A DNA stretch of 53,983 nucleotides, taken from a virus. Below the pieces are notes generated by a model. It saw only the letters and a program-made list of their open reading frames with translations. It was not told where the DNA came from and did not search any database. A program made the position numbers and the translations under genes. Below, one piece after another: positions 2,956-25,598 of this stretch. The DNA lies in the IMG/VR virus record IMGVR_UViG_3300027985_001102, positions 1 through 53,983 of that record; one strand, given 5' to 3'. Within the stretch, counting starts at the first letter, position 1; each line of letters starts with the position of its first letter.

Positions 2956-2985
2956 ATCGTTTTATCTCCGTTGGTCCTTCAGTTA

Positions 2986-5643: not shown

Positions 5644-5652
5644 CTCCGACGG

Positions 5653-8310
5653 CTACAGCTTCCCGCTCCCTTCCCAGCCATCATCTGGCAAGCCCACGGG
5701 CACGGGGCCAATCTTTGCCCCTGACTTCTCCACCCATGCAGCCGAGCGCGAAATCACGCGGCATCTGCAGTTGAAACCGAACGGCGGATAGGCATGATCC
5801 CAGAACGGGTCATCGGCAGGAAGGATCGTTCCAATCGCATCGTAGTGCGCGGGTCGGATGCGGTCATCCCTTACACCGCGGATTTGCCAGTAGGGGCGCG
5901 CCTTCAGCACGTCAGGCTGGGTCATCTCCGTCTTACGGCCGTGACCGTAGGCGGTCATGATGTTCGTCCGGTAAATGGTCTCGACATGGGAGGAATTGAC
6001 AGGCAGCCACCCAGCAGACTCAATACGAGCGGCGATGAACTGCTTGAACTGTCCAAGATCAGGGCCTTCGTGCGTACCGGGAACCATGGCGCGCCTACCC
6101 GCCTCCAGTTGCCGGTCAAGTTCGCCCTTTGCCACCGTCAGCAATTCCTTCGATGTCAGTCGCGCGATCGTGAATGCACGCCGCTTCGCCGCAGCGGTCA
6201 GCCGCTTGAACAGGTTCGGTTCGAGGATGTTCTTCGCCTGGAAGAACTTCAGAGCCGCCGCATAGGGTTGTTCGACGAACTTTGGCGAAGCTACGAGCGC
6301 CATCTTGATCCGTGAGAACGTTTCCAGCTGCACTTGCTCGTCGTTCTCGCGCTCCCACGCCGAATCGAGAGCGCCGAGCATGGCCCCGCGCATGATCTGT
6401 TCCTCAAGCAGCTGAGCAAACGCTTCGGTGTTGATCGACTTGCCAGCAGCGTTCAGCGCTTGGCGGATTGCTGGTGCAGTAGTCAGACCGTCGACGGACT
6501 TGCATAGCAATTCCGCCCACTTAGCCGTGATGACAGCACCCGCAGTCGTACCCTTCTCGGCAAGGGTATCAAGCGAACCAAACACCGAATCAGGAGGTCG
6601 AGCACAACACACATGGTCAAAAGGGCGAGCGGCCGCCCCCCTGACCGGCACAGACAGATTCTTCGGGATGGCTCGCCATGCGATCTTCCAAACTGGAGCG
6701 CCATTGACCATTTCGACGTCACGAACACGCTCGATTCCGCACAGCCGACAGCGATTCACCGCCCCGTGTTCGCATCGAGGAATCGCCAACTCAGTCATCT
6801 TCGTCGCTAGGGTAGACGCGGATTCATCCGTGGGAGGTTCACCGGGAATGCCGTCCCCATCGGGGTCATCGGCGGCCATGGTGGCGACAGCGGCTGGGTC
6901 AGTGGCGGCTAGAGCTGGGCGTGGGACAGGTGGGACATCCGGAGCTAGTCCACCGTCATCGCCCATCACCCCGATCTTTGCCCCGCTGGTTTTCGTTGGA
7001 TTGCCCATTGCGTCGATTCCAGTCGATTCGACAAGCTGGACCACCTCATCCCCCGGTTCTGGCTGCTCGGTTCCGCTTCGTTCGTAGATTTCGGTCAGCT
7101 TCACGGGCACGCCAAGCTTCAGTGTCTTGTCCAGCCTATCGATTTCCTCTGTCCTATTCGGGGGCGCCTCCGTTACGAACCTGATCCTGGGGGAGTACTT
7201 GAGCGCACCTTCACCGAGATTCATGAACACGATCTCACGAGCGATAGACGTGAAAACGGCAGACAGATTCCTACCGTCTGCGTTCACGACTCCGAGCTGC
7301 TCACCACTCGCGACTTCATCGGCAGAGGAGCCAAGGGCGCCCGGCTTAGCATCGGATGTGCGCTTGTTTCCCAGCACAAGCAGCGAGTTTTGGTCGTCTG
7401 CTTCTTGAGCGATGTCCTTGTGGAGTTGCCCCGAATCTGGGTGCGGTTGGTCCGTTTGCAGCGCGATCCCAGGGGGAAGGACACCAGTGGAATTCGACGC
7501 CATCTGGTCGATTGTTTGCTGTGCTTTGTCCAGTTGGTCTGGTTGGACCAAACCAAGGGAAGGGTCTGGCACCCACACAATCCTCCACGGGCGACCAAAC
7601 ACCTCGAGCAACACCATCCGTTCACGCCAACTGAGTCTCTTGAAGAGTGAGAAGTACAAACACCTCGGCGCCAACCCCTCGCGTTCCGGGTAGTCATTGA
7701 AAAGGCGTGGTTGAAAACAACTCCACTTGAACGGTATCGATCGAAGATCGAACCCCCGCTTCTCAAATGCCCCACCAGACCAATTCTCGTCGTTCAGCCT
7801 CAGCTCGCGCTCAGGGCCTAACGTCAGTCTTCTTGGGTGAATCCATGACAGCTCTGAGATCGTCCACGGGATCGGGTCGGAAGGGTCATAGGCCCACTGC
7901 TTCTCAGTCGCAGCTCGTCCGTCGAAATGCCCCCAGTCAAGTGATTGCACCGCTTCAGCCAGGTTTGAGATTCGAGCGAACGCCTGCCGGACCATGTCGG
8001 CTACCTCGGACGCTGGCTCTGGTTCGACCCCTGGGCCACTTACCGCGACAACATCACAATCGAGCGCGGCAATCGCGCGGAAACGCTTGCCGAGAATCGA
8101 ACCCAGATGCGGATCGATGGCGACCGTCTCGTAGGCGAGATCGGTTAGGTCCCGCATGTAGCCCATTTGTGCCGCACGTATGACGCCTTCCACCCGTTCC
8201 GGGCTCACGCCATTGCCGTAATACATGCGCCACTGCTCGGCCTCGGGGACCGTGCTTGAGCCGAACAGACGGGATTGAAGCGCGCGAACGTCTACTTGGA
8301 TGGCTGACAC
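5653..8310 (-). CDS. Portal fused to MuF-type head morphogenesis protein
   Basis: 885 residues. Residues about 1-470 match the DUF935/Mu gp29 portal (MRDLTDLAYETVAIDPHLGS, IPFKWSCFQPRLF, RMVLLEVFGRPWRIVWVPD). The remainder carries the MuF/SPP1 gp7 minor-head signature, with ETIYRTNIMTAYGHGRKT and, near the C-terminus, DRIRPAHYDAIG, then DPFWDHAYPPFGFNCRCRV. In Mu these are two genes (29 and 30); here they form one chain with a Pro/Ala/Asp-rich linker around residue 470-490. The portal forms the DNA gate; MuF is a few-copy internal head protein. The start is GTG at 8310, directly after the stop of an overlapping small frame. Confidence 0.88.
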   Translation of the reverse strand: MSAIQVDVRALQSRLFGSSTVPEAEQWRMYYGNGVSPERVEGVIRAAQMGYMRDLTDLAYETVAIDPHLGSILGKRFRAIAALDCDVVAVSGPGVEPEPASEVADMVRQAFARISNLAEAVQSLDWGHFDGRAATEKQWAYDPSDPIPWTISELSWIHPRRLTLGPERELRLNDENWSGGAFEKRGFDLRSIPFKWSCFQPRLFNDYPEREGLAPRCLYFSLFKRLSWRERMVLLEVFGRPWRIVWVPDPSLGLVQPDQLDKAQQTIDQMASNSTGVLPPGIALQTDQPHPDSGQLHKDIAQEADDQNSLLVLGNKRTSDAKPGALGSSADEVASGEQLGVVNADGRNLSAVFTSIAREIVFMNLGEGALKYSPRIRFVTEAPPNRTEEIDRLDKTLKLGVPVKLTEIYERSGTEQPEPGDEVVQLVESTGIDAMGNPTKTSGAKIGVMGDDGGLAPDVPPVPRPALAATDPAAVATMAADDPDGDGIPGEPPTDESASTLATKMTELAIPRCEHGAVNRCRLCGIERVRDVEMVNGAPVWKIAWRAIPKNLSVPVRGAAARPFDHVCCARPPDSVFGSLDTLAEKGTTAGAVITAKWAELLCKSVDGLTTAPAIRQALNAAGKSINTEAFAQLLEEQIMRGAMLGALDSAWERENDEQVQLETFSRIKMALVASPKFVEQPYAAALKFFQAKNILEPNLFKRLTAAAKRRAFTIARLTSKELLTVAKGELDRQLEAGRRAMVPGTHEGPDLGQFKQFIAARIESAGWLPVNSSHVETIYRTNIMTAYGHGRKTEMTQPDVLKARPYWQIRGVRDDRIRPAHYDAIGTILPADDPFWDHAYPPFGFNCRCRVISRSAAWVEKSGAKIGPVPVGLPDDGWEGSGKL

Positions 8311-8414
8311 TCAGCGATCATACGACGGGCGTGCATAGGGTCGGGTCGGGCTGAAGAAGTTAGGCGTTCCACCTCGGCCAGCAGCTCCTTCGCCACCTCG
8401 CGGGCTTCGATCAT
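8292..8414 (-). CDS. Small helical protein between terL and portal
   Basis: 40 residues: a charged amphipathic helix (MIEAREVAKELLAEVERL) followed by a short basic tail. It overlaps the portal start by 19 bases. A competing frame (8311-8433, starting TGATG after the previous gene) gives a Gly/Arg/Pro-rich peptide that looks less protein-like. Only one is likely real; I prefer this one on composition. Function unknown. Confidence 0.4.
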   Translation of the reverse strand: MIEAREVAKELLAEVERLTSSARPDPMHARRMIAECQPSK

Positions 8415-8432
8415 CCAACCGTTCGGGCGTCA

Positions 8433-8600
8433 TCACTTCTCTTTCGGTTTGATCCACCCACGAGCTTCGAATTCGCGTCGGGCTTCGTTCAGTCGAATCC
8501 TCAAACCGTCTTGTGTCAACTCAGTGGACAGCCGTTTGCGGATTTCTACACGAAGTTCGGACTTCAACTTTTCTAACGCCTCAGCCACCTTTTCAGCCAT
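8433..8600 (-). CDS. Small charged helical protein downstream of terL
   Basis: 55 residues, MAEKVAEALEKLKSELRVEI at the N-terminus, mostly charged heptad-like helix, ending in GWIKPKEK. The ATG at 8600 overlaps the terL stop (TGATG), so it is translationally coupled to the terminase. It lies where other phages encode small portal- or terminase-associated proteins; function unknown. Confidence 0.55.
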   Translation of the reverse strand: MAEKVAEALEKLKSELRVEIRKRLSTELTQDGLRIRLNEARREFEARGWIKPKEK

Positions 8601-10006
8601 CAAAAACCTCCAAGGCTTCGATTCTGTCTTGGGCCCGAAACCTTCACGTCGATCGTCTGCCCCCCGCCTGCCACAAGGGCATCAAAGGCGGCAGCCAGAG
8701 CGTCGACCTGGTCATCGTGCAGGTCCTTGACCCCTGTGAATCCAAGCACTTCCTTCAACAATTCTGCAACCCATGGCGCATCCCGTGGAACGAATATCTT
8801 GCCACGATTCCACGCTGCTGCAACTGGTTGTGCGCGGATGAGCTTGTCCACTGTTGCTGGAATCGCGCGTAACATCCTGGCCCCTTCGTTTCGAATGTGC
8901 TGAGCCACGCCCTTTTCGGGCCCGGCCATGTACCACCACATGGGCGATCCAGGCCATGCCACCGACATTCCATTGAGAATCTTGCTGAAAGCTGGGGAAT
9001 CTATCTGGACTCGGTGAACCAGCAGCACGTAGTACTGGGTGTCGACGATCCTTCCGGTGGTGTCCCGAATGTCGTAGGCAGCAAGAGCAAGCCCTACAGA
9101 ATAGTCAGATTTCTTGTTCTCGGAATATGCACAGTCCACACCGATCGCAACCCGGTACCCGCCTGGAGGCAGCTCGTCGTACAGATGAGCGTCACGGAAT
9201 ACTTTCGAGCCCTTAGGGCGTGGATTGCCCTGAAACAACGATTCCCAATCGTAGTCAGACTTTGCCCGTTTCGCTTCCCACCACGCAGCGGGACGCATCG
9301 ACTCCCACAGGTAGGTGCCGTCGAGAGCCAGTGCCGGAAGGTTGATAAGCTTCATCGGGGCATCCCCATCGGGATCCGACTGGCGGCCGATCAAGTCGTC
9401 TTCATGCCAACGATGGTGGTTGATGAAAGTGGACGAACCAGGATGAAGTCGTCCTTGGATCGAGGTGAACCATGAGTGGACTGCTTCCCGTCGGACGGGG
9501 GATTCCGCCTCGGCCCTGGACTTGTGTGGATCATCAATGACGATCCACCCGTCGATTCCCTCACCAGTGAGCGGACCACCAATCCCCGCCGCGATCACGC
9601 TCCCACCTTCCACCGTCTTCCAGTACCCGGAGGATTGGCACAAGGGATCGATGTGGGCCCTAGCACGCTTGGCATACTCGAGAATCGTGCGCGACTTCCG
9701 TTCAGCAATCGTCGCTGAATAGGAGATGTACGCGTTCTTCTTCGTGGGGTTCCGCGCTATGAAACGAGCGAAAGCCGAGAACAACGCCTCGGACTTTCCG
9801 ACCTGTGGAGGAGCTGAGAAGCAGGCCTCAACGGGTTCGTGGAACGCTCGTTCCACCTCATCAAGAATGGGGGAGAGATGATGGGGTCGCTCGTAGCTGG
9901 GGTTGATGTGTTGGACAAAATTGACCAACGGCATGCCGTCGATTTCGGCAAGCCTTCGTCGCAGTTCGAGCTCAGCTTCAGCTCTTGTCGCCAGATCCAC
10001 GAGCAA
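8600..10006 (-). CDS. terL: Terminase large subunit
   Basis: 468 residues. The Walker A motif SAPPQVGKS is at about 64-72 and Walker B WIVIDDP at 154-160 (packaging ATPase). The C-terminal RNase H-like nuclease has GVDCAYS with Asp291 and DLHDDQVDALAA with Asp431/432/435. It cuts and pumps DNA through the portal. The start is TTG at 10006 or GTG at 10000, both inside the terS 3' end, downstream of GAGG. Gene order terS-terL-portal is standard. Confidence 0.95.
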   Translation of the reverse strand: MLVDLATRAEAELELRRRLAEIDGMPLVNFVQHINPSYERPHHLSPILDEVERAFHEPVEACFSAPPQVGKSEALFSAFARFIARNPTKKNAYISYSATIAERKSRTILEYAKRARAHIDPLCQSSGYWKTVEGGSVIAAGIGGPLTGEGIDGWIVIDDPHKSRAEAESPVRREAVHSWFTSIQGRLHPGSSTFINHHRWHEDDLIGRQSDPDGDAPMKLINLPALALDGTYLWESMRPAAWWEAKRAKSDYDWESLFQGNPRPKGSKVFRDAHLYDELPPGGYRVAIGVDCAYSENKKSDYSVGLALAAYDIRDTTGRIVDTQYYVLLVHRVQIDSPAFSKILNGMSVAWPGSPMWWYMAGPEKGVAQHIRNEGARMLRAIPATVDKLIRAQPVAAAWNRGKIFVPRDAPWVAELLKEVLGFTGVKDLHDDQVDALAAAFDALVAGGGQTIDVKVSGPRQNRSLGGF

Positions 10007-10391
10007 TTGCCTCGAGCTCTTCGATAGTCAACGCCGCGAAGTCTATCTTTACTGGTCCTCCGCCAGCGCCAGTGTGCTCTACCGACATTCTTGTCTTGCC
10101 TCCGTGTCGCTCTGGGAATCGGCGTTCAAGCAGCCACTTAGCATGTTCTGGGCCATAACGCTTATCCGATGTCGCTCGCATCACAATCATGGAGAGCTCC
10201 GCTTCAAATTGCGCCTGTGCCTTCTCTATAGATTCAGTAAACGCCTTCCGTTTTGGGTCACTGAGCCACATATAGTAAGATGATCTCGATATTCCCACCA
10301 GGGCACAAGCAGTGGAAGCTGGCACTCCACTGGCGATTAGGGCGCATATGTTTTCTTGCATCTTAGGTGAGAGACGAGTTTTCCTTGCCAC
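9978..10391 (-). CDS. terS: Terminase small subunit
   Basis: 137 residues. The N-terminal helix-turn-helix (IASGVPASTACALVGISRS, about 18-37) is followed by SYYMWLSDPKR, a long helix (ESIEKAQAQFEAELSMIVMRA) and a C-terminal tail that could contact TerL. It recognises packaging DNA. It heads the late minus-strand block and is divergent from the HTH gene at 10439, only 47 bp away, so the late promoter should lie in or overlap that gap; no clear -35/-10 pair is visible there. Confidence 0.85.
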   Translation of the reverse strand: MARKTRLSPKMQENICALIASGVPASTACALVGISRSSYYMWLSDPKRKAFTESIEKAQAQFEAELSMIVMRATSDKRYGPEHAKWLLERRFPERHGGKTRMSVEHTGAGGGPVKIDFAALTIEELEAIARGSGDKS

Positions 10392-10438
10392 CGTTCGATC
10401 CTACCTTCCTCGGCCCACGAATTGCACCAGGATAGATC

Positions 10439-10714
10439 ATGAAGCGACAACCACGCGAAGGCTCTCTAGCCGTGGCTTTGGGGGCATGCTTGCGTGCGCC
10501 CGATGAACGTCTGGTGCAAGCAGCCATGCTGGTGATTGCGGAGGCGCTGGAGGGATCTGATGGGGTAGCCACCCGTGCTGCCGCGCGCCTAGGCGTACCG
10601 GAGCGCACGTTCCGAAAATGGTTGGCGCAAAGCCCCTCCTTGCAAGCGATGCGCAGCAAGATCCAGCAAAAACGCGACGGTAAGAACATATCCCACCGTG
10701 TGGTACCTCAATAA
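10439..10714 (+). CDS. Fis-like helix-turn-helix regulator A
   Basis: 91 residues. The C-terminal half has a Fis-type HTH (TRAAARLGVPERTFRKWLAQ, about 44-63). Residues 8-30 (GSLAVALGACLRAPDERLV) are clearly related to the protein encoded at 28712 (SALGVALGACLRSGDRLLV), so the two are paralogues. It diverges from terS, so control of the late operon is a reasonable guess; no direct evidence. Confidence 0.65.
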   Translation: MKRQPREGSLAVALGACLRAPDERLVQAAMLVIAEALEGSDGVATRAAARLGVPERTFRKWLAQSPSLQAMRSKIQQKRDGKNISHRVVPQ

Positions 10715-10865
10715 AACCAATACGTTACTGTATAGCTGTGCATGTTTTGCGGAACCCGTGACACCCATGTCATTGGTGTTACAGTGGGATTAGATGCCAT
10801 GAGCGAACTTACGAGAGGTTACACGACATGTCTAGCTAGGCATGGGTCATGCAGCTTCATGTGGC
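10715..10865 (+). promoter_or_regulatory. Palindrome-rich control region
   Basis: The gap of 151 bases holds four symmetric elements. These are GTGACACC/GGTGTTAC (10758-10765/10775-10782, one mismatch), GACATGTC (10825-10832), CTAGCTAG (10832-10839) and a perfect 8-bp inverted repeat GGTCATGC/GCATGACC (10845-10852/10864-10871) whose second arm contains the start codon of the next gene. They could be operators and an mRNA hairpin. No other gene is visible. Confidence 0.5.
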
Positions 10866-11171
10866 ATGACCATAACCATCACCATTACGAATGAAATCCG
10901 CAACCTGGCTGAATCCCTCACTGGAGCAAGTCTCGCGCGTCGTGATGGGCTTGTCTGGCATCACTCTGCCACTGTCCGTTTGGGAACACGATGCCCACTG
11001 GTTGTCGATCTGAGATGCTGTGTGGGGGTCAAGAAATGGGCTACAAATGTTGGGAAGGCGCTCTCCAACAAGGGGATGCGTGTCCATGTTGGCAAGTGCG
11101 TTCGGACCTACAGGGACCATTCAACCATGCCAGATGGATGGTGTTGCCTCGTTTCGATTCTAGGGCTCTGA
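10866..11171 (+). CDS. Unknown protein upstream of the TudS-like gene
   Basis: 101 residues, starting MTITITITNEIRNLAESLTG, with five Cys in the C-terminal part (TRCPLVVDLRCC, VGKCVRTY, WCCLVSILGL). Not recognised. The start ATG lies inside an inverted repeat and has no good ribosome site. It ends 11 bases before the TudS-like gene, so the two are probably co-transcribed. Confidence 0.45.
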   Translation: MTITITITNEIRNLAESLTGASLARRDGLVWHHSATVRLGTRCPLVVDLRCCVGVKKWATNVGKALSNKGMRVHVGKCVRTYRDHSTMPDGWCCLVSILGL

Positions 11172-11182
11172 AAGGATGGGCA

Positions 11183-11587
11183 ATGAAAACCGTAAAAAAC
11201 GAAACCGAAGACCGGCCTGCTGTACTCGTGTCCACGTGCCTCATGGGTGTAGCATGCCGCTACCACGGTCGACCATGCGCCACGCATAGCCGAATCCGAG
11301 GCATGCTTGACGCTGGCCGCGTGCGACTTGTGCCGGTATGCCCGGAGGTGTCGGGTGGGTTGCCTGTGCCTCGTCCGCCTACCCGCCCCAAGGATGGTCG
11401 GCTCTGGTGCGGCGGGGAGGACGTCACCGAGGCGTTTGAGGCGGGGGCGCAGGAAGCGCTTCGTGTTGCGGTGGAGTGCGGAGCGAAGAAAGCCTACCTG
11501 GTACGAGGGTCCCCTTCTTGTGACCGTGATAAGGGTGTAGCAGCAAGGCTGCTACAGGCGCATGGCATCAAAGTCATCCGGATTTAG
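11183..11587 (+). CDS. DUF523 / TudS-like iron-sulfur desulfurase
   Basis: 134 residues. The family hallmarks are STCLMGVACRYHG (Cys19, Cys25), the VPVCPEVSGGLPVPRPP block (Cys53) and RGSPSCD (Cys113). DUF523 includes TudS, a [4Fe-4S] enzyme that removes sulfur from thiouracil; three Cys bind the cluster. The start ATG at 11183 has AAAGGA at good spacing; the longer upstream frame is not needed. The gene overlaps tail-to-tail by 14 nt with the ParB-PAPS-reductase gene, placing a desulfurase beside a predicted sulfur-chemistry enzyme. The substrate here is unknown; thiolated nucleotide or nucleic acid is an inference. Confidence 0.85.
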   Translation: MKTVKNETEDRPAVLVSTCLMGVACRYHGRPCATHSRIRGMLDAGRVRLVPVCPEVSGGLPVPRPPTRPKDGRLWCGGEDVTEAFEAGAQEALRVAVECGAKKAYLVRGSPSCDRDKGVAARLLQAHGIKVIRI

Positions 11588-12845
11588 CCAACTTCTTCTG
11601 ACCACCCCGCACCAGATCATCGAATGAACGTGGCCCACTTCCGCCGTCTGGTTGCATAGGCCCGAGACGTTTTTCCCACCGGCGGATGTCATCAGCCAGC
11701 CCTGGGTAGTTGTGTTGCAAAGCAGCAGCCTGCAAGCCACATTGGCCGGGGCAGCACCAGCACGCCGTTCGAATGAAGCCGCGCTTGTATCCATCCCATA
11801 GCGGTACTCCACTGGATTCAATGATCTGGTCTTCTGTCGCCTTCTTGGTCGCAAAGCATGGCGCAAAGTGCTGGTACTTGTCACTCTTGGACCCAAGCGA
11901 CTGCAAAGCGCTTCGCTCTGTTTTTCGACTACCCAAATTGGCTTCTTCTGCTCGTGAACCAGTAAGCACCACCGTCGTTCCTTCGGGATGCTGTCGTACA
12001 TATGTACCGAAGGTGCGGTGGATCATGTCGTTGGCGCATGGCCGATAGATGATACTGGGCCATCGCCCCTCTTGCGCCAACCATGCCCACCAATCCCGCT
12101 GTGGCTTGAGTACTACACATTCCGCATGAAGGAATACTGCCACGTCGTACACATGCGCTGAAATGCCAGGGAATTCCACACCTGGATCCACGAATGCCAA
12201 CTGAAAACGTTTACCAGTCGCGTGTTTCGATGCCCAAAGCGCGGCGGCAGTGGAGTCTTTTCCACCGGAAAACTGGACGATTACGTCGGTTGCATTCTCC
12301 CATGTAGGCTCCAACCAAGCTGGCATGTCGAAGAAACCATCTGCGTCTTTCCACTCGTGCACATGTTGTCGTGGGAATGTCTGCCTCTGTTTTCGTATCT
12401 GCTCGAGCAACTTCGCGGTGGCGCTTGCATCGTGTCCAGTCCCACGCAAGTCTCCCCTTTGTGCCTGTATCTCTGCTAGTAGCTCATGCAATCGCTCCGG
12501 ATCGGGCTTGGCTCTGGCTGCTGTGGCATTGTCGGCCACCATAATGCGAATGGCAGTGTCGTCGTCAACGTCTACGTAATCGACATCGATTTCTGTCAAT
12601 CCCTCAGCCTTCGCAGCCATGTAGCGGTGGTTTCCAACCAGCACATGCCCAGAGCTCTGCTGCACCACGATCGACCCGTAGAAGCCGTTCTCTACCACTG
12701 ATTCCCTTACCGAATCCACATCTCCTTTGTTGTAGTTTCGCGGGTGAAGACTTATCAAGTCCAAGCCTACTCTCGCATGGCTCACATTCACGACACTGGC
12801 CTTCGCGTGTTGTGTGTCCAGTTTGTTCGGTTTATGCCCTACCAT
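11574..12845 (-). CDS. ParB-like nuclease domain fused to PAPS-reductase/PP-loop domain
   Basis: 423 residues. Residues 25-110 are a ParB/sulfiredoxin-like domain (LISLHPRNYNKGD, VLVGNHRYMAAKAEG). Residues 185-375 are a PAPS-reductase-like PP-loop domain: FSGGKDSTAA (193-200), a FVDPGVEFPGI strand, SRAEEANLGSRKTERS and the Cys cluster CWCCPGQC (362-369). IbrB/IbrA and some phosphorothioation-linked enzymes pair the same two domain types as separate proteins. The PP-loop domain should adenylate or handle sulfur; the ParB domain may bind or nick DNA. The start ATG at 12845 has GGAGG with 5-nt spacing. It is the last gene of the early minus operon. Confidence 0.88.
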   Translation of the reverse strand: MVGHKPNKLDTQHAKASVVNVSHARVGLDLISLHPRNYNKGDVDSVRESVVENGFYGSIVVQQSSGHVLVGNHRYMAAKAEGLTEIDVDYVDVDDDTAIRIMVADNATAARAKPDPERLHELLAEIQAQRGDLRGTGHDASATAKLLEQIRKQRQTFPRQHVHEWKDADGFFDMPAWLEPTWENATDVIVQFSGGKDSTAAALWASKHATGKRFQLAFVDPGVEFPGISAHVYDVAVFLHAECVVLKPQRDWWAWLAQEGRWPSIIYRPCANDMIHRTFGTYVRQHPEGTTVVLTGSRAEEANLGSRKTERSALQSLGSKSDKYQHFAPCFATKKATEDQIIESSGVPLWDGYKRGFIRTACWCCPGQCGLQAAALQHNYPGLADDIRRWEKRLGPMQPDGGSGPRSFDDLVRGGQKKLAKSG

Positions 12846-12895
12846 TTACGCCTCCATCTCAGTCTCCAACCGGAGAATGTCACGTTCATCCCACC

Positions 12896-13120
12896 TCACG
12901 CCTCCGAATCCCTACCAGCCAAGTCGTCAAGAGCGTCCGCCTGCTCCCGCGGCTTAGGGTCGAACGGGGACCACTCGGCCCCTGGTGGTGCCACTGCTTT
13001 GCCAACCACGTATCCAAGCACCGCACGGTCCGCCACGCGTACGATTTCGGCTCCAACAGGGAATCGCTCCGGGTACCGCTTGGATGCCGAACGAGCGGCC
13101 GAATGCGACGGAGCGAACAT
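12896..13120 (-). CDS. Unknown small protein
   Basis: 74 residues. The ATG at 13120 overlaps the upstream stop (TGATG). It has a beta-type segment VGAEIVRVADRAVLGYVVGKAV and an acidic tail. A longer frame to 13249 exists but would overlap the upstream gene by 130 bases. Not recognised. Confidence 0.55.
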   Translation of the reverse strand: MFAPSHSAARSASKRYPERFPVGAEIVRVADRAVLGYVVGKAVAPPGAEWSPFDPKPREQADALDDLAGRDSEA

Positions 13121-13548
13121 CAGGAGCCTACCACCCGCAACGACGATGACTGGCCCATGGGCTGGGAGTCGGCCGTCGAGTATCTCGCCCCGCAGGTGTT
13201 CCCTGTCTTGACGATTTGGCCTCGCTCCAACAGCCGACGCAACGACCATTCCAAGCGTGATCGCGGGATCTCCGGCATGTTCAGCTCGCGCTCGAGCTCG
13301 GCAACGCTCGTCCCAGGCCTGGATTCGAGCATCTCTATCACTTTCTCGTCGAGCTCGTTCGGCTTCCTCCCGCCTTGCCGCCTCGGCTTCTGCCTCTCGA
13401 CTGGCTTGGTCTGCGGACGGGATTCCCCTAAAGGGCTGGGCACCTCGCGTTCTGTTGGGCGGACCACCTCCAGGACGTAGGAAATCGATGTCGCCAAAGC
13501 CAGCTGTGCGCGGGCCAAGACGTGGAGTGTCTCGTTTGAATCAGCCAT
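13120..13548 (-). CDS. Winged-helix-like protein
   Basis: 142 residues. The N-terminal helix is followed by a basic linker (RQKPRRQGGRKPN) and a domain (about 65-125, LDEKVIEMLESRPGTSVAEL through LRRLLERGQIVKTGN) with the helix-turn-helix-wing pattern seen in MarR/IclR-like DNA-binding domains. It starts inside the end of the upstream gene. Probably a DNA-binding accessory protein; target unknown. Confidence 0.6.
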   Translation of the reverse strand: MADSNETLHVLARAQLALATSISYVLEVVRPTEREVPSPLGESRPQTKPVERQKPRRQGGRKPNELDEKVIEMLESRPGTSVAELERELNMPEIPRSRLEWSLRRLLERGQIVKTGNTCGARYSTADSQPMGQSSSLRVVGS

Positions 13549-13891
13549 GTTTCCTCGCCTTCACCAACTCAGGCCACAACCCAAGGTCCCAAATCGCCGC
13601 TCGACTTGCTTCTTCGCAGTATCCCATGCGAGCAGCAATCAGGGTCACTATGCCGCCGAACAGCCAGATGGATTTGAGCCACTGGTCGCGCTCCGCCAAT
13701 AGACGTTGTCTGCGCTCGCGACAGATTGCCATTCTAGCACCCCACTTCAGAAGTGCTTTCCTGGACTGCTTTCGTGGCCTGGACTGCTTTCGTGGCTTGG
13801 ACTTTTTCGGTTTGGCATACTTCGCCTGGATACGCATCGCGATGGCCGCACACCGTTCACTCGGAGACATGCTCCTTTCGACAGTAAGCAT
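13541..13891 (-). CDS. Basic protein with repeated KPRKQSR motif
   Basis: 116 residues. A Lys/Arg-rich stretch contains two tandem copies of a PRKQSR motif (about 35-45), followed by KALLKWGARM, a helical region and one hydrophobic segment (IWLFGGIVTLIAARMGY, about 72-88) that could be a membrane helix. The start ATG at 13891 follows GAGG. Unrecognised. Confidence 0.5.
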   Translation of the reverse strand: MLTVERSMSPSERCAAIAMRIQAKYAKPKKSKPRKQSRPRKQSRKALLKWGARMAICRERRQRLLAERDQWLKSIWLFGGIVTLIAARMGYCEEASRAAIWDLGLWPELVKARKHG

Positions 13892-13893
13892 CC

Positions 13894-14097
13894 TCACCTC
13901 GCCTCGATTGGTTTGTGCACTGGAACCGGATCGGCCGCGGCACCATGGACATGCACGCGAATCACATGTTTTGGCGTTACCGCCTCGACGTTACCCCTTG
14001 GTCGGGCCGTGCCAAGCGCGGATGTCAGATATCCCGCTGTGTCGTGATCCACATGAAGGTCCACAGAGCCGTCATGGCATTGGATGAGCCGAATCAT
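13894..14097 (-). CDS. Unknown small protein
   Basis: 67 residues, starting MIRLIQCHDGSVDLHVDHDT, with a His/Val-rich middle (KHVIRVHVHG). The ATG at 14097 is preceded by AAGGAAGG. It sits between the antirepressor-like gene and the basic protein in the same operon. Not recognised. Confidence 0.55.
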   Translation of the reverse strand: MIRLIQCHDGSVDLHVDHDTAGYLTSALGTARPRGNVEAVTPKHVIRVHVHGAAADPVPVHKPIEAR

Positions 14098-14108
14098 CGT
14101 TGCCTTCC

Positions 14109-15479
14109 TTACGCTGCTTGTGTGCGCATCTTGCAGTACGCCATTGCCCAATCTGCTGGTGCCAGATAGCTATGAGGGATCGGCTTCCCCTGCATCCACT
14201 CAATGATCCCCCGCTTCGTTTTCTTGTCACGCAGATAGACCTTGATCTCATAATAGGCACCTACTGACTGCATGACCATTTTCCCCTTCAGGTCGAGCGC
14301 ACTTCTTGTCCAAGATTGGGCTAGACCATCCGCCCAAGTGATGAGTCGCGGGTCTGGTTCGTCCGTCAACTCTCGCGCACACTCAAACGCCAGTTGCCGA
14401 CGAATGGCAGTGATGTCGGCCTCGCGCTGGTCGCCCATGACCTTCGTTCCATCCTCCGAGAACATGGGGATTTGGTCTGGACTTGGCCTTGGTGGGCAAC
14501 GGAACTTCCTTGTCGCAACGGACTCGTACAGGTCCATTTTGGCCTTACGAATCGCCTCTTCCGTCGCCAGCTGCGTGGCCTCGTCCCGCTCCTTCGCTTC
14601 ACGTTCAATCCGCTCTTGCTCGGTGAGCAGATTGGTTGCTAGATTGTCTACGTTGGCGAGCTTCGCGCTCAGGGAAGCGATCTTTGCGTCGGTGTGCTTC
14701 GCCAGGATCATCACCAGCGAGTCGTCATCTTCGACGATGGGCTTGGTCGGCCCGTGCCGGTAAGCGAGATACACCGCGATGACCTCGTCCATGATGTCGT
14801 CGGCCTTGTCAGTCTCGCACCGGCGGATGACTCTCAGGGCGTTTCGTTCGTCCAGGTAGTAGGCGGTGACCTCACGCTCTTCGATGCCCTTCACAGCCCC
14901 ACGTTTTTCGATGCGATCCATATGGATCGCATGCAAAACCCCTGGGATTTTGCCACTTTCGTCGAGTCGCTTGATGAGCTTCCGGATGCTTCGTGGCTGG
15001 TCGAACCCGAGCCGTTCCGCCAACACGATATCCAAGATCCTCGGTTCTGGGTCGCCCTCGAACTGCTCCATGTGCCAGCCGTTCAGCACGATGGCTTTGG
15101 AGGTGGGGGCTGTAGCCTCCACTGGCTCAACCACTTCCGCTTCGACAGGCGCTTCGACAGTCTTCGATTGTGTCTTCATTGCCTCTTTACCTCCCAGCCA
15201 ACGAATCACCTTGCTGATGTCGACCACGTTGCCCTTGCTCTTCGCCACGACGTGGATGAGCGGCAGGTGCCACCCTGACACCATCGCAGCGATAGTGTTC
15301 TCGTTGCCATTGATGCCTACGGTGTTTAGGATTGCCACCTCGGCACCCTCGTGGATAGCCTGGTGGAGCTCGCAGTACCGCACCCACGAGACCACCTTGA
15401 TGCCCTCAGCGCCAAGCCTGTTGGCGAGTAGGCGCTTGGCCGATCCGATGTCATTGGCGATTACGATTGCTCTACACAT
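14109..15479 (-). CDS. Rossmann-like module joined in frame to an antirepressor-like protein
   Basis: 456 residues from ATG 15479. Residues 1-100 look like a small alpha/beta domain (IVIANDIGSAKRLLANRLG, VAILNTVGINGNENTIAAMV, HLPLIHVVA). After a Glu/Val/Pro linker, residues about 125-235 match the N-terminal domain of phage antirepressor/Rha-type proteins (ILDIVLAERLGFDQPRSIRKLI, YYLDERNALRVIRRCETDKA, VYLAYRHG). A long charged coiled coil and a C-terminal domain follow. An internal ATG at 15179 with GGGAGG and GAGG upstream could start the antirepressor alone. One extra G in CTGGGAGG would end the first module at a TAA at 15187, so a lost stop or sequence error is possible. Antirepressors trigger lytic growth by binding repressors. 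Confidence 0.65.
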   Translation of the reverse strand: MCRAIVIANDIGSAKRLLANRLGAEGIKVVSWVRYCELHQAIHEGAEVAILNTVGINGNENTIAAMVSGWHLPLIHVVAKSKGNVVDISKVIRWLGGKEAMKTQSKTVEAPVEAEVVEPVEATAPTSKAIVLNGWHMEQFEGDPEPRILDIVLAERLGFDQPRSIRKLIKRLDESGKIPGVLHAIHMDRIEKRGAVKGIEEREVTAYYLDERNALRVIRRCETDKADDIMDEVIAVYLAYRHGPTKPIVEDDDSLVMILAKHTDAKIASLSAKLANVDNLATNLLTEQERIEREAKERDEATQLATEEAIRKAKMDLYESVATRKFRCPPRPSPDQIPMFSEDGTKVMGDQREADITAIRRQLAFECARELTDEPDPRLITWADGLAQSWTRSALDLKGKMVMQSVGAYYEIKVYLRDKKTKRGIIEWMQGKPIPHSYLAPADWAMAYCKMRTQAA

Positions 15480-16067
15480 GTTGTTTCGCGCTCCTTGCGA
15501 TAGAGATAAGCAGATCCCTGAACTCTGTTGGTGTGGCCGCTGCCTGTTTCGGGGATAGCCTCTGACGCTCGTCGTCTGTTTGGGTTCGGTTTCGGCACAG
15601 GGATACGAGCGCATTTGTCCGAAGCCCAGATCCCCACCGCATCGATGGCAGGTCGACACCATTCGCGTACACGTTGCCTTGCGGGCTGGATGCCCGTACC
15701 GGCCTTGCTCGACGTGACATGTCCATCCTCCCAGATAGTCCGCGTTCACCCATCCGCCTGTGGCCGGAGGCACATTCAGACCGTACGTCCCCCACGCGTC
15801 GGAATATGCTGGGTGCTCCAAGACGCCGCCCCACCTACGCACGGAGTCCAACGCCGACGCAAAACACCCACCGTCTACTCCTCGCAGGTACCCATAGCGT
15901 GCCTCCACGAGCCCCGCCAGACGGCACCACCGCGTGCATGGGGGGTGCGCTACGACAGGATGGGGACCAGGATACAATCGCGCGTCCCTGGATTCGTCCC
16001 ATAGGTCCACCCCAGTTAGGCCGGAGTATGACCCTTTTGGATCGACGAAGAGAGCGGCTACAAGCAT
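15472..16067 (-). pseudogene. Conserved phage protein with PPC motif, frameshifted
   Basis: Residues 1 to about 133 follow a conserved phage family of unknown function (ALFVDPKGSYSGLTGVDLWD, VVAHPPCTRWCRLAG, GGVLEHPAYSDAWGTYGLN, GWTCHVEQGRYGHPARKAT). At 15669-15671 the expected continuation moves to another frame (YANGVDLPSMRWG through TPTEFRDLLISIARS), which ends correctly at 15472. One base, or four, is missing there. In this sequence the first frame runs on uninterrupted into the downstream gene, making a false 652-residue ORF. The gene is either truly broken, recoded, or carries a sequencing error. Restored length is about 198 residues. Confidence 0.75.
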
Positions 16068-16160
16068 CTACCGATCCGTAAACGGCCCCGTGCTGCCACG
16101 GAACCGCCCCAAGAACGCGTTCGACGTCCAGGCCCGCATGCTCGACTCCGAAAGCGTCAC
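16068..16160 (-). CDS. Possible 30-residue peptide
   Basis: The GTG at 16160 overlaps the stop of the upstream gene (GTGA). The peptide ends at TAG directly before the ATG of the frameshifted gene. It is Arg/Gly/Ser-rich (AWTSNAFLGRFRGSTG). Tight coupling on both sides is the only support. Confidence 0.35.
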   Translation of the reverse strand: MTLSESSMRAWTSNAFLGRFRGSTGPFTDR

Positions 16161-16303
16161 CTTGCCCCCGTACGCTTGGCGCACGCCCGATGTTCGGCTA
16201 GCCATGTCCAGCCATCTCGGACGTCACCCGTACATGTCACAGGATGCACGGCCCCGCAGACCGAGCATTCCCACCGACGTGGTAGAGCCAGCACCGTGGG
16301 CAT
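16157..16303 (-). CDS. Small zinc-ribbon-like protein
   Basis: 48 residues from ATG 16303. WECSVCGAVHPVTCTGD carries a CxxC pair, and HRAC near the end offers a further ligand pair, suggesting zinc binding. The frame is open much further upstream through the palindrome array, but that part is low-complexity and repeats non-coding sites, so the short start is preferred. No strong ribosome site. Confidence 0.45.
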   Translation of the reverse strand: MPTVLALPRRWECSVCGAVHPVTCTGDVRDGWTWLAEHRACAKRTGAR

Positions 16304-16410
16304 CGGGTCAACCGTCCGAGTGTCGATCTGGCGTTTCCGGCCGGGATCGTTTCCTTGACTACATGTAACGCCTATTGTGCGACGACTGCCTACGTGTTGG
16401 GCCCGCCTTC

Positions 16411-16768
16411 GAACTGGTCCGGCCCAGGAATGTGGGGCGCCCATCGAAACTGGATGCTTCCCCGGGGGGGGGCCTTTTAAGGCCCCCCCGGGAACCAGTT
16501 CGTGGGCCACTTCCAAACCGGTTCCGGTGGGCCAGTTGGGAACCAGTTGGGAACCAGTTCGAGCGAAACGTGATTTCGCTTGGAATATTGCAGTTTCGTG
16601 TGTCGAACTGGTTCCCGAGTTGAGTGGACCACTTCGACGTCCTAGGTCTTTTTGGCTCGCGAAGTGGTTCCCAAACTTCGGGAACCAGTTCGACAGTGGA
16701 AACGATTGTGATTCCGTGGGGTTGCAAAACTGACCCGCGAACTGGTTCCCGCTCCATGGGCCAGTTCG
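16411..16768. repeat. Array of about ten GAACCAGTTC palindromic sites
   Basis: Five exact copies of GAACCAGTTC or its complement lie at 16492-16501, 16551-16560, 16605-16614, 16682-16691 and 16739-16748. Near copies are at 16411, 16515, 16540, 16661 and 16758. Each is a GAAC-N2-GTTC palindrome, often followed by CG or preceded by GG. An AGCGAAA/TTTCGCT inverted repeat lies inside (16562-16580). It adjoins the replicative helicase gene, so iterons of a replication origin are most likely; a multi-operator for a dimeric repressor is the alternative. Confidence 0.75.
16461..16492. other. Very GC-rich perfect hairpin inside the palindrome array
   Basis: CCC-G9-CC is followed by TTTTAA and GG-C7-GGG, giving a stem of about 13 bp. 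It has no U-run, so it is not a typical intrinsic terminator. It could pause polymerases, extrude as a cruciform or mark the origin. The long G and C runs are also prone to sequencing error. Confidence 0.6.
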
Positions 16769-16778
16769 AGTATGGAAT

Positions 16779-18338
16779 TCATACATCATCGTTGGCCTCC
16801 GTAGTGAGCTGCCAAGAGTCTCCGCCGCCTCTTCCAGCCTCCCGCTTGCTCTTCGTCACGATTCCCTCGCGGAGCATGTAATCGAGCGTCGCACCAACTG
16901 TCTGGCGTCGAATCTTCAGTGCCTCGGCGAGCTCACGACCGGACATTCCTGGATCGAGTCGCAGTGCGTGCGCGATCTTGCTTGCGTTGTCTGTTCGGAT
17001 GACGCTGGGCGCCTTCGGGGGGTCGACTTGTTCAAGGGTCATCTGCTGACACTCGAGACCCCAACGTTCCTGTCCCTCTTCCGAAAGAACATCATCGATC
17101 TTGAGAGCAAATGGTTGCAGCGCGGCACCAGCTGCTTCGGCTCCAGTCTTGGTCATTTCGACCTTGACGATGGTTGATCCGTCGTCGTTTACGCTGCCAC
17201 GGAAGGCCAAGACCGTGCCGCATGCTGCGTAGATTGCAGCACTCCCACGAGCACGCTCCTTTGCTTCCTTGTCCTTTCCACCCTTCCCGTCATGGTGGAG
17301 AAGGACGAACGCACACCCTGTTCGATCGCTTACGTTGAGGAGCTTCGAGACGTGGTCACTGATGGCCGCGTCGTTCTCGTCGACTCCAGGGGTGGCCGCG
17401 TGAAGGGAGTCTAGAGCGCATATGGTCACTCCATCGCATGCCTGTTCGAGTATGTCCTCTGCGTCAGGGCTGGACAGGCGAAACTTTCGAGGTAGGCAGC
17501 ACACGTCCAGGTTTGCTGCGAGTTCGTCGTAGTCACTCACAGCGAGCGCGCGAGACAAACGCTGGTATCTGAGAAGCGTTGCGCGCTTCCCTTGCTCGTG
17601 GTCGATGTGCAGGACGCGCCCAGGTCGTGCTACACGATACCTGCCCCAAACGTGCTTTCCCGTGGCAACGGCGATGAGTAGCGCCTGCAGTGCCACCGTC
17701 TTTCCGCTGTATCCGTAGCCTGACACCATGGTGGGTCTGCCTGGTGCGACATACAGTTCTGGGATGACGAACGGGATCGGTGGCATTGGCGCAAACAACT
17801 CGTGTTTCGGTACCAACTCCAAAGCTGTTGTTTGCTGCGTTTCAATCTTGGCGAGGAGACTCTTGGATGACGCAACAAACGCGACTGCATCCGTGGCCGA
17901 GTATCCCTCAGCGGCTATGCGTTGCGCCGTCGAGATCACCTGACGTAGGGCGTGCTTCTCGACGATTCTGCGGCAGTAGTCAGGAATGTTTGCTACCGTT
18001 GGGACGGTGGTCAGATCGAGAAGGGCATTCACACCCCCAACTCGCTGCAATTGTCCCAAGTCGTTGAGCCGGCCTTTGAGGGTGACGATGTCGAGACCGC
18101 CCGTCAGCTCGACGGCCACACACGCATCGAAAATTAGCTTGTGTGGATGCGAGTAGAGGTGTTCGGACCGAAGCAGCCCACGAACGGACTTGGTTGACCC
18201 ACCAACTATGACTGATCCCAAGACCGCTCGCTCGGCCTCTAGGTCATTCGGTGGGATTCGTGTTGGCAAAGGACGCAAGTTGCCATTCCCGCCGTCGTCA
18301 TCGAAGTAGTCGTCAGGGGGTAGAGCCACCACGGTCAC
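16779..18338 (-). CDS. DnaB-like replicative helicase with C-terminal winged helix
   Basis: 519 residues. Residues 30-150 are a DnaB N-terminal domain (PPNDLEAERAVLGSVIV, VGGVNALLDLT). Residues 185-440 are a RecA-fold ATPase with Walker A SGYGYSGKT (206-213), Walker B ICALDSLH (306-313) and LLHHDGKGG (347-354), closer to RepA/AAA_25 than to classical DnaB. Residues about 450-505 form a winged helix (MSGRELAEALKIRRQTVGATLDYML). That added DNA-binding domain could recognise the adjacent palindromes. The start GTG at 18338 overlaps the nuclease stop. Confidence 0.85.
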   Translation of the reverse strand: MTVVALPPDDYFDDDGGNGNLRPLPTRIPPNDLEAERAVLGSVIVGGSTKSVRGLLRSEHLYSHPHKLIFDACVAVELTGGLDIVTLKGRLNDLGQLQRVGGVNALLDLTTVPTVANIPDYCRRIVEKHALRQVISTAQRIAAEGYSATDAVAFVASSKSLLAKIETQQTTALELVPKHELFAPMPPIPFVIPELYVAPGRPTMVSGYGYSGKTVALQALLIAVATGKHVWGRYRVARPGRVLHIDHEQGKRATLLRYQRLSRALAVSDYDELAANLDVCCLPRKFRLSSPDAEDILEQACDGVTICALDSLHAATPGVDENDAAISDHVSKLLNVSDRTGCAFVLLHHDGKGGKDKEAKERARGSAAIYAACGTVLAFRGSVNDDGSTIVKVEMTKTGAEAAGAALQPFALKIDDVLSEEGQERWGLECQQMTLEQVDPPKAPSVIRTDNASKIAHALRLDPGMSGRELAEALKIRRQTVGATLDYMLREGIVTKSKREAGRGGGDSWQLTTEANDDV

Positions 18339-23145: not shown

Positions 23146-24708
23146 ATGCGTAAAATCAGCAAGATCACCGTTCGCAACTACCGAGGAATCGAAGAGCTCG
23201 ACCTGGACGTTTCGCCAGCAGGAGCAATCGCCAAAGGACGTAACGGTGCAGGGAAAACCACCCTACTGAAGGCCGTGAAGGCGTGCTTGCTCGCTCAGGA
23301 TGTGGGCTCCGACGCAATTCGAAAGGGGGCTAACAAGTCCGAGATCCTGGTGGACATTGATGACCTGCAGGTTAGGAGGGTCATTACCGAAAAAGGGAGC
23401 CGTCTCGACGTCGGTAAGGGCGAATTCCTTGTCAAGGCACCCCAAACGTACCTGAAGGAGCTGTTGGGGACTTCGACCTTGGATCCGATGGATCTGCTCA
23501 TGTTGAAGGGCAAAGAGCGCCGAGCAAAGGTCCTTGCAGCCCTTCCAGTAACAGTGACAGTGGAGCAGCTCCGCAAGTGGTGGGACAAGTGTCCAGACAA
23601 CTACGACTGCAGTGGACATGGACTCGACGTGATCGCGACGGTGCGCGACATGGCCTACAGAAAGAGAACGGACACGAACAGGGTCGTAAAAGAAGCAGAG
23701 CAAGCCTTGCGTCAGGCTCGTCGGGTGGCCGAATCTATTGTGGCTCCGGACGCCGAACCCAACCTTGACCACTTGCAGAATGTGGCCGACGCCGCTCGAG
23801 CAGCGGCGACAGGGCTCCGGTCCAGGCATGCCGAGGCTGAGCGTCAGATCGAGGCTATGTCTGGCAATAGGTCCAAAGTGGAATCGCTTCGAGCCAAGGC
23901 GGATGCTATTCGCGCCGAGGCCAAACCCGTTGCTGAAGAAGAAATTGAACATGCGACCGAAGCGGTTCACGAGTCGCGCGATGCGGTGGCAAGGCTTCGC
24001 GCGCAGCTCGAGTCCGCCGAAATCACGCTACGCAATTGCGAGCGTGCTGCAATCGGGCTGCACGCGGAAAATGAGAGATACGAGTCGGCTATTGAGCAGG
24101 CTAGGGGGATTGAGCAACAAGCCGATGAGCTTGAGTCGGCCATTGAATCGGCGATGATCCGACCCGTCGCAGGGGTCGAGATTGCAGCTGCAGAGCTTGA
24201 AGCCCATACCGCACAAGACGCTCTCGCCCAAGCCAGAGCGGATGCCGCTCGGATCCGTGAGGCAAGTGCAGCCAAGAAGGTGCTGCTTCTCGCAGAGGAA
24301 AACGCGAGCAAGGCAAAAGGGGAGGCCGAAAGGCTTGACTCCATTGTCAAAGCGCTTACCAACGATGCGCCAGCCGAACTGCTTGCGGCCGCAGACGGGA
24401 TCCAAGGTCTCACCATCGATGGGGACGAGGTGCTCCTTGATGGGGTTCGGCTCGACGCTTTGTGCGGCGCGGAGCAGATCCGTTTCTGCGTTGAGGTCGC
24501 TCGACGCGCAAATGAAAAGTCAAAGATTCTGATCTGCGATGGTCTCGAACGGCTCGACCCTGAAGCTATGGACGTGTTTGTTCAGGAAGCAACTCGTGGT
24601 GGGTACCAGTTGCTTGCCACCCGTGTGGACAGGGGGGACGTGGTCATTGAAGCAATCGAATCTGGACCGGTCGAGTCGGAAGCTACAGAAGAAAGGGCGG
24701 TGGCGTGA
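23146..24708 (+). CDS. Rad50/SbcC-like SMC-type ATPase
   Basis: 520 residues. N-terminal KITVRNYRGIEELDLD and Walker A GRNGAGKT (31-38). A long charged coiled-coil region spans about 190-400 with no obvious zinc hook. C-terminal signature-like LCGAEQIRFCVEVA and Walker B ILICDGLERLD. The residue after the Walker B Asp is Gly, and a Glu comes two positions later, unlike the usual DE. It leads the recombination genes (nuclease, DNA-binding protein), so DNA-end processing is likely. ATG 23146 follows GAAAGGGA. Confidence 0.85.
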   Translation: MRKISKITVRNYRGIEELDLDVSPAGAIAKGRNGAGKTTLLKAVKACLLAQDVGSDAIRKGANKSEILVDIDDLQVRRVITEKGSRLDVGKGEFLVKAPQTYLKELLGTSTLDPMDLLMLKGKERRAKVLAALPVTVTVEQLRKWWDKCPDNYDCSGHGLDVIATVRDMAYRKRTDTNRVVKEAEQALRQARRVAESIVAPDAEPNLDHLQNVADAARAAATGLRSRHAEAERQIEAMSGNRSKVESLRAKADAIRAEAKPVAEEEIEHATEAVHESRDAVARLRAQLESAEITLRNCERAAIGLHAENERYESAIEQARGIEQQADELESAIESAMIRPVAGVEIAAAELEAHTAQDALAQARADAARIREASAAKKVLLLAEENASKAKGEAERLDSIVKALTNDAPAELLAAADGIQGLTIDGDEVLLDGVRLDALCGAEQIRFCVEVARRANEKSKILICDGLERLDPEAMDVFVQEATRGGYQLLATRVDRGDVVIEAIESGPVESEATEERAVA

Positions 24709-25598
24709 TGTCTGTCACCTTCCTGAAACGCATCACCATACCAGAGTACAATGCAATCGATGCGGTCAACTACTCAACGTTGAAGCACATTCTGAAGTCG
24801 CCGAGACACTTTCGACACGTTCGCACCGCGGGGACAGCACAGACCGAGGCGATGTCCCTCGGGTTGGCATGTCACAGCGCCACACTTGAGCCAGACAAGT
24901 TCGAATCAGACTACTCCGTGTGGAATCAACGCACCAAATCAGGACGAACATCGCCACGTAACGGTAAGTCGTGGGATCACTTCCTGCGATGCAACATAGG
25001 TAAAACTGTCATCACTGAGAAGCAGTACGAGATCGCCACCGTCATGCGTGACTCGGTTCGGTCAGACCCTACCTCAATGCAGTTTCTGGTCGCGGGGGAG
25101 GCGGAAGTCGCAATGGTTTGGGTCGACCCTATTACGGGTCTCCTGTGCAAGGGGAGAGTGGACTGGCTTGCCAGGATAGATCTGGAACCAGTGATTGTTG
25201 GTCTCAAGACCGCCGTTGAATCAGGGTTGGACGCATTCTCTAGGCAGTCCAATCGCCTGTTGTATCACCTACAGTGGGCCATGTACCGCGAGGGGTTCGT
25301 TGCGCTCACAGGAGAAATCCCGCGCGTCGTGGAAATCGCTGTCGAATCAAAGCCTCCACACGATCCGGTGGTCTACGAGATTGGACCAGACGTGATCGAA
25401 CCAGGTATTGTTCTGTTTCGTCAGGCCATGGGCGAGGTTGCGAAGTGCCGGCGGACCAATACGTGGCCAGGTCAAGGCCGAGGAGAGATCGTCTCGCTAA
25501 CGCTCCCATCCTGGGCAGCAGGGGTGCCGAGTGACGAGGATGTTTCCCTGGACATGACCGGAATCGACATGTCTGCGCTCGAAGGATTGGAGGCCTAA
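24708..25598 (+). CDS. RecE-like PD-(D/E)xK exonuclease
   Basis: 296 residues. Family features are LGLACHSATLEPDKF (His56), GEAEVAMVWVDPITGLLCKGRVDW (acidic residue near 132, Asp152), VIVGLKTAVESGLDAF (Lys167) and YHLQWAMY. This is the DUF3799/RecE C-terminal nuclease pattern. The usual core is D-x-K; here the residue two before Lys is Gly165 (codon GGT), a single base from GAT. If real, this should damage metal binding. The stop-start TGATG couples it to the ATPase gene. Confidence 0.82.
   Translation: MSVTFLKRITIPEYNAIDAVNYSTLKHILKSPRHFRHVRTAGTAQTEAMSLGLACHSATLEPDKFESDYSVWNQRTKSGRTSPRNGKSWDHFLRCNIGKTVITEKQYEIATVMRDSVRSDPTSMQFLVAGEAEVAMVWVDPITGLLCKGRVDWLARIDLEPVIVGLKTAVESGLDAFSRQSNRLLYHLQWAMYREGFVALTGEIPRVVEIAVESKPPHDPVVYEIGPDVIEPGIVLFRQAMGEVAKCRRTNTWPGQGRGEIVSLTLPSWAAGVPSDEDVSLDMTGIDMSALEGLEA

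Follow-up and report, generated by a model that had tools for sequence, protein, structure and literature searches.

A repeat array directly behind a RepA-type helicase gene as a likely replication origin of a temperate myovirus

The repeat array and the helicase gene beside it

The window, i.e., the whole viral record of 53,983 bases analysed here, carries a 144-bp direct terminal repeat (1–144 and 53840–53983) and is therefore likely to be complete, as a genome of 53,839 bp that is circular or terminally redundant. Head, tail-sheath and baseplate genes occur together with an integrase gene, a gene content that marks the virus as a temperate myovirus. The genome also encodes a protein with a ParB-like N-terminal half fused to a PAPS-reductase-like half (11574–12845, minus strand). 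The protein encoded at 23146–25598 (plus strand) matches phrog_1499 and weakly SbcC, and with the product of the exonuclease VIII-like gene that comes after it perhaps forms a phage recombination pair.

An iteron array occupies one 360-bp stretch (16409–16769), with 11 sites of GGGAACCAGTTCGA in both orientations at up to 4 of 14 mismatches, compared with 5 sites in the best of 100 shuffles. At up to 2 mismatches, 7 sites remain against a shuffle maximum of 2. The pattern GAACNNGTTC occurs 10 times in the window where 1.11 occurrences are expected, and none of 100 shuffles reached 10. Exact iterons matching GGGAACCAGTTCG lie at 16490–16502, 16549–16561 and 16680–16692 on the plus strand and, inverted, at 16604–16616 and 16738–16750 on the minus strand; allowing one mismatch, the record holds seven copies, every one within 16490–16750, and the same pattern read backwards has zero occurrences in the record. 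Near copies with 2 of 14 mismatches are found at 16538–16551 (plus) and 16659–16672 (minus), with 3 at 16409–16422 (minus) and 16624–16637 (plus), and with 4 at 16513–16526 (minus) and 16756–16769 (plus). The first-pass annotation had described five exact and about five near copies in 360 bp, and the comparison with shuffles confirms this array at 11 sites. Its expectation that the motif would be rare elsewhere holds in this genome: the exact core GAACCAGTTC/GAACTGGTTC has five copies, starting at 16492, 16551, 16605, 16682 and 16739, and none in the rest of the 53,983-base record. A blind repeat score, defined as the best 10-mer with one mismatch on both strands in the 300 bp behind the helicase gene, gives 8 copies here, a count not matched in any of 530 other windows within the record (best 6).

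The array contains two folded elements, both anticipated by the first-pass annotation. A hairpin, CCCGGGGGGGGGCC-TTTTAA-GGCCCCCCCGGG, with pure G/C arms around a TTTTAA centre, lies at 16461–16492; the iterons on both of its flanks point outwards, and no T-run follows it. A long inverted repeat spans 16593–16703, with 44-nt arms (16593–16636 and 16660–16703) that are 80% complementary around a centre at 16637–16659, and the stretch 16590–16706 has a folding z of −8.1 as a single DNA strand. A clear AT-rich melting region is lacking, the lowest G+C of any 40 bp being 0.45. Open frames span the array on both strands (e.g., 16157–16789 on the minus and 16377–16733 on the plus strand), with a third-position G+C of 0.55–0.59 that falls within the range of confident genes (0.53–0.72), a value at which they may or may not be coding.

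Base composition shows a modest signal around the same place. With the genome circularised, cumulative GC skew reaches its minimum at 17,288, inside a flat basin spanning 16.5–17.5 kb; this minimum lies within about 1 kb of the array, as a check proposed at first pass had envisaged. In five minus-strand genes on the left of the array (4003–16067), plus-strand third-position skew lies between 0 and −0.11, and in six of seven genes on its right, which are minus-strand genes too, between +0.10 and +0.29; two head genes (1861–3993) are exceptions to this pattern.

The gene for a replicative helicase, P0001 (519 aa; 16779–18338, minus strand), has its stop codon only 9 bp from the array, so that the iterons lie directly downstream of the gene, in agreement with the earlier statement that they adjoin a DnaB-like helicase gene. 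P0001 combines, all on the minus strand, a DnaB N-terminal domain (residues 29–126, 17961–18254; PF00772, E 2.7e-16), an AAA_25 ATPase domain of RepA type (residues 174–354, 17277–17819; Pfam E 4.8e-22) and a modelled C-terminal winged helix (residues 444–511, 16806–17009) that is MarR_2-like by Pfam, the MarR_2 match (residues 455–501) being slightly below the curated cutoff. AAA_25 is the best ATPase match, and the DnaB C-terminal ATPase family is absent from the nine Pfam families listed. Among solved structures, the N-terminal part is related to DnaB and the ATPase part to RSF1010 RepA, with structure 1g8y matching at E 7.4e-7 by sequence profile and ranking first in Foldseek at 8.0e-7. 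The structure model has a mean pLDDT of 48.9 and can be trusted only for the winged helix and some of the ATPase core; over residues 451 to 500 the mean pLDDT is 81–88 per 10-residue block. The modelled winged helix consists of helices 444–461, 467–474 and 478–490 and strands 494–498 and 507–511, and helix 478–490 (RQTVGATLDYMLR; 16869–16907, minus strand) is the predicted recognition helix. Pfam finds no primase family in P0001, and PHROG primase/helicase matches cover residues 146–404, which is the ATPase part. The general domain scan names no separate RepC or primase RepB' among 40 window ORFs.

Recurrence of the layout in other helicase lineages

Close relatives of P0001 are lacking among the viral contigs covered by helicase scans and a peptide-pattern scan. 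None of nine loci from the latter contains a P0001 relative by tblastn, and another candidate, L009, was rejected as it matches only the DnaB N-terminal part. At E ≤ 1e-12, a class-wide search matched 22 of 298 genomes, namely that of L008 itself and 21 others that were set aside, with matches restricted to the ATPase part. L008, a contig from a Phycisphaerales bin, is the only relative found at 39–42% identity (42% over residues 166–509), and its protein has no DnaB_N domain. Immediately behind its stop codon lie 8 copies of a different repeat (CCACCGAAGTCG and similar) around a G/C hairpin, GGGGGGCTTATAGCCCCCC.

The same arrangement, with other letters, is found behind more distant helicases. 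In L070, which came from the motif scan described below, the array begins at the stop codon of a 443-aa AAA_25 protein, and a hairpin, CCCCCCCCTAAAGGGGGGG, separates GAACTGGTTCC and AACCGGTTCC from GGAACCAGTTC and GGAACCGG. In E. coli prophages, AAAGTGRGS repeats run from the stop codon of a 'helicase RepA family protein', and the module has matches with at least 80% cover in 541 of 5,426 complete E. coli genomes. Most of the Streptococcus phages tested share the layout; the Javan phages among them, like Dulem virus 35, have repeats with still different letters behind the helicase. The S. thermophilus phage Sfi21 has a non-coding origin. In L165 (1–187), obtained from a control palindrome scan, GGACAYRTGTCC palindromes lie directly behind the gene of a 655-aa RepA-like protein. 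The window helicase is 23–24% identical to the L070 lineage, and its link to that lineage and to the E. coli family is remote.

How exceptional these arrays are was scored at 32 loci with the blind repeat score, each against the other windows of its own locus. At 19 of the 32, no other window of the locus equals the score behind the helicase: the window, L008, L070, nine E. coli loci, six Streptococcus phages and Dulem virus 35. The remaining 13 are unexceptional, i.e., L152, L165, L193, L200 and nine phage or plasmid records without a significant array by this score (L010, L172–L177, L179 and L181), although arrays are recognisable by eye or alignment in L152, L165 and L200. These counts are not all independent, since it was repeats that led to L070 and L165, and the E. 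coli loci, like the Streptococcus loci, are close kin among themselves. A shuffle test of the 15 loci first taken, with 40 shuffles each, agrees with the survey: the observed count was reached by no shuffle for the window, L008, L150 and L180, by one for L178, and by 3 to 40 for the other ten. On this comparison of sequences, several lineages commonly have the layout, while others lack it or have it in a different form. The recurrence with other repeat letters behind relatives' helicases lends support to the first-pass suggestion that the array is a candidate replication origin.

A motif-first scan gave 105 stretches, of which 80 loci were examined, and a helicase lies within 2.5 kb of the motif at 4 of the 80 (L056, L058, L070 and L092, the last two being one lineage). 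In a control scan with a rearranged palindrome the corresponding figure is 1 of 18 loci (L165), and thus the window's letter string is not enriched at helicases relative to the rearranged palindrome. L165 itself has an array behind a RepA-like helicase, and therefore the palindrome control is no true negative. The bare string of the 14-mer is also not diagnostic, because in L075 (700–1040) it recurs every 30 bp as part of a coding repeat (MGTSSMGPKP) in a 242-aa ORF.

The scan yielded further repeat loci. Pfam was run on 20 of the 80 motif-covering ORFs, picked by eye, with the helicase itself submitted for L070, where it gave AAA_25. Winged-helix or Lin1244-type domains were found in five (L058, L074, L083, L107 and L111); the other scanned ORFs had no match or unrelated ones (capsid, protease, collagen and others), and the L056 ORF, initiator-like by eye, had no Pfam match. 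Repeats of the GAACCAGTTC type lie within genes resembling winged-helix replication initiators in L056 (5400–5476; the resemblance is by eye only), L058 (3260–3380), L107 (4295–4365), L083 (near 2548) and L111 (near 2884), and in L056 and L058 a DnaB-like gene comes after. Unrelated phage initiators may read the GAACCAGTTC-type half-site. Irregularly spaced repeats around TCGAACCAGTTCCATCCACAGCGTGCGG, flanked by longer repeats, occur in L114 (1040–1310), L116 (4820–5217) and L045 (near 4780).

Joint change of winged helix and repeats in two groups of relatives

Four contigs represent the L070 lineage (L150–L153, where L150 is the contig of L070 itself and L151 that of L092), with helicases 93–100% identical to that of L070. 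A single array is common to L150 and L151. Its units are altered in concert in L152 and for the most part in L153, from AACCGGTTCC to AACCGGTATC, from GGAACCGG to GATACCGG and from ACGGTTCC to ACGGTACC, with one repeat unit of L153 still in the L150 form. Over the overlap of residues 241–443, eight fixed differences distinguish L152 and L153 from L150 and L151 (Y354F, A412N, V414I, L415I, E416A, T417E, K435R and L437A), and seven of them fall in the recognition helix (412–417) and wing (435–437) as assigned by alignment. Between L150 and L152, 69 synonymous and 6 nonsynonymous codon differences lie outside the last 64 residues, and 11 and 8 lie inside them (Fisher p 0.001); the corresponding figures are 48/6 and 10/8 for L151 and L152 (p 0.004) and 16/4 and 7/11 for L150 and L153 (p 0.019). 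The winged helix of this lineage thus has an excess of nonsynonymous change.

A second case comes from E. coli prophages, in which 12 loci with RepA-family helicases (L180, L182–L187 and L195–L199) were picked by identity from ranked lists. Their presumed recognition helix has one of three sequences, YEMKN, YEMKH or YDTKH. Where it has Asn (six loci), A follows GTG at all 31 scored AARGTG sites, and where it has His (six loci), G follows at all 37; one AARGCG site each in L180 and L199 was left out of the count, as was Salmonella L200 (55–57% identical) with one scored site. On a tree of the E. coli helicases built without the last 75 residues, the Asn/His label changes five times, at least three of which are forced by well-supported branches. 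L180 and L182 are 98% identical outside the last 60 columns, yet residue and array differ together, with Asn and GTGAGG in L180 and His and GTGGGG in L182, and the same joint difference separates L184 from L185 (97%) and L187 from L199 (95%). A second change goes in the same direction at two loci, with FRRWLY accompanying GTGGGG and LKRWLA accompanying GTGGGC.

L199 (119–1740) combines a backbone like that of L187 with a winged helix and array like those of L180, and this winged helix and array look like a cassette exchanged between prophages with differing helicase backbones. From this mosaic, cassette exchange would account for at least part of the label changes, and joint exchange of reader and array would itself mean that the two belong together. 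As read from sequence comparison, both natural experiments link the winged helix with the repeats, and both concern relatives outside the window's own lineage. They favour the earlier proposal that the C-terminal winged helix could recognise the repeats, in that repeat letters and recognition helix change together in both groups. Given the Asn/His switch, a single amino-acid exchange in E. coli prophage modules would be a direct test of origin specificity.

Origin reading, alternatives and known systems

We consider it likely that this temperate phage starts its replication at the array, which the adjacent helicase P0001 would read. For the window, helicase binding and origin function are inferred, the covariation being that of relatives outside its own lineage. 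In such a scheme, the winged helices of several P0001 subunits would bind the iterons flanking the hairpin, which would put helicase rings at the site, assembled around the hairpin, while the hairpin or the long inverted repeat would supply single-stranded DNA for loading. The DnaB-type N-terminal domain would recruit host primase, and initiator and helicase would be one protein, without a separate O-type initiator. Replication forks would depart from the array, and the position of the skew minimum at 17,288 fits such a departure.

Several other functions were weighed against this one. A large operator or termination region for genes downstream of the helicase, such as that of the weakly MarR-like protein encoded 3 kb off (13120–13548), would explain a palindrome suited to a dimeric winged-helix regulator. 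However, neither a sigma-70-like promoter nor a T-run terminator was found at 16000–16850, in a search confined to that promoter type, and the array recurs behind helicases in lineages where the repeat letters follow the helicase, leaving an operator unlikely. The same attachment of the layout to helicases in other phages argues against a partition or incompatibility (parS-like) site. The genome does encode a ParB-like domain that might read one (11574–12845), but its PAPS-reductase-like half, the presence of an integrase and the lack of a named ParA among the ORFs scanned make this function highly improbable.

The GAAC...GTTC halves are similar to those of Gram-positive SOS boxes, and LexA or another host regulator might thus be the reader; an SOS box has four central bases (GAAC-N4-GTTC), whereas the array core is GAAC-N2-GTTC and the window's three GAAC-N4-GTTC strings (137, 9842 and 45221) all lie outside the array. 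We regard this as the least probable of the alternatives, with hardly any chance of being correct. Repeats and hairpins occur at packaging sites too, but the large terminase gene (8600–10006) is 6 kb distant and in other phages it is the helicase that recurs beside the array, so that a pac/cos or recombination site is very doubtful.

An origin read by its own helicase has a wider bearing, as DnaB/RepA-type replicative helicases normally depend on other proteins to locate the origin and gain entry to it. We lean, by a narrow margin, towards a broad class of phage replicons, both environmental and in common E. coli and Streptococcus prophages, in which a RecA-fold helicase would read its own origin through a C-terminal winged helix that recognises iterons right behind the gene. 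Reader and array would shift together as a specificity cassette with a residue-to-base code (Asn–A, His–G), and the window's motor, with its DnaB_N domain, may recruit itself to the origin without initiator or loader. If helicases do read their own origin, initiation has collapsed into one protein, and origins in many unannotated prophages could be located by looking behind the helicase stop codon. Among the entries listed by a literature search whose coverage excluded most subscription papers, there was no account of iterons behind RepA-like phage helicases.

Known systems offer partial parallels. SaPI Rep is an AAA+ protein. According to PMC7581432, the C-terminal domain of SaPI Rep and of SCCmec Cch2, the latter a 3'-5' helicase, recognises iterons directly downstream of its own gene; the likeness to the window lies in a C-terminal DNA-binding domain (here a predicted winged helix) and several short repeats behind the gene. 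The motor differs, as P0001 is of the RecA-fold RepA/DnaB type with DnaB_N and belongs to a different helicase family. In pRN1, as far as the consulted portion of PMC4234260 goes, ORF904 joins a PrimPol and an SF3 helicase to a C-terminal winged helix and requires a stem-loop immediately 3' of the replication gene, and the same authors describe a similar layout for phage BIP-1. The window likewise has a replication protein with a C-terminal winged helix, and a hairpin and a long inverted repeat lie 3' of its gene as possible counterparts of the stem-loop, whereas pRN1 has no iterons and specific binding was not found there, to the extent covered by that portion (PMC4234260). The α protein of satellite phage P4 binds origin repeats with a winged helix and unwinds with the same protein, a union of reader and unwinding that P0001 would share, but it carries a Toprim-type primase and another helicase, unlike P0001 (PMC4234260, in part).

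The closest structural match of the ATPase domain is RSF1010 RepA. RSF1010 replicates with RepA, RepC and RepB', and its iterons are read by the separate RepC, whereas in P0001 the reader appears fused to the helicase (PMC4234260, same portion). PLE RepA resembles the groups examined here in a DNA-binding domain that changes along with the origin iterons and is exchanged as a module; its reader is the RepA_N domain of an initiation factor, with no helicase fusion described in the part of PMC8263062 consulted. The precedents of SaPI Rep/Cch2 and pRN1 make a helicase that reads its own origin a natural reading, and by analogy P0001 and its array are best read as resembling the SaPI Rep/SCCmec Cch2 scheme, built here on a RecA-fold (RepA/DnaB) helicase.
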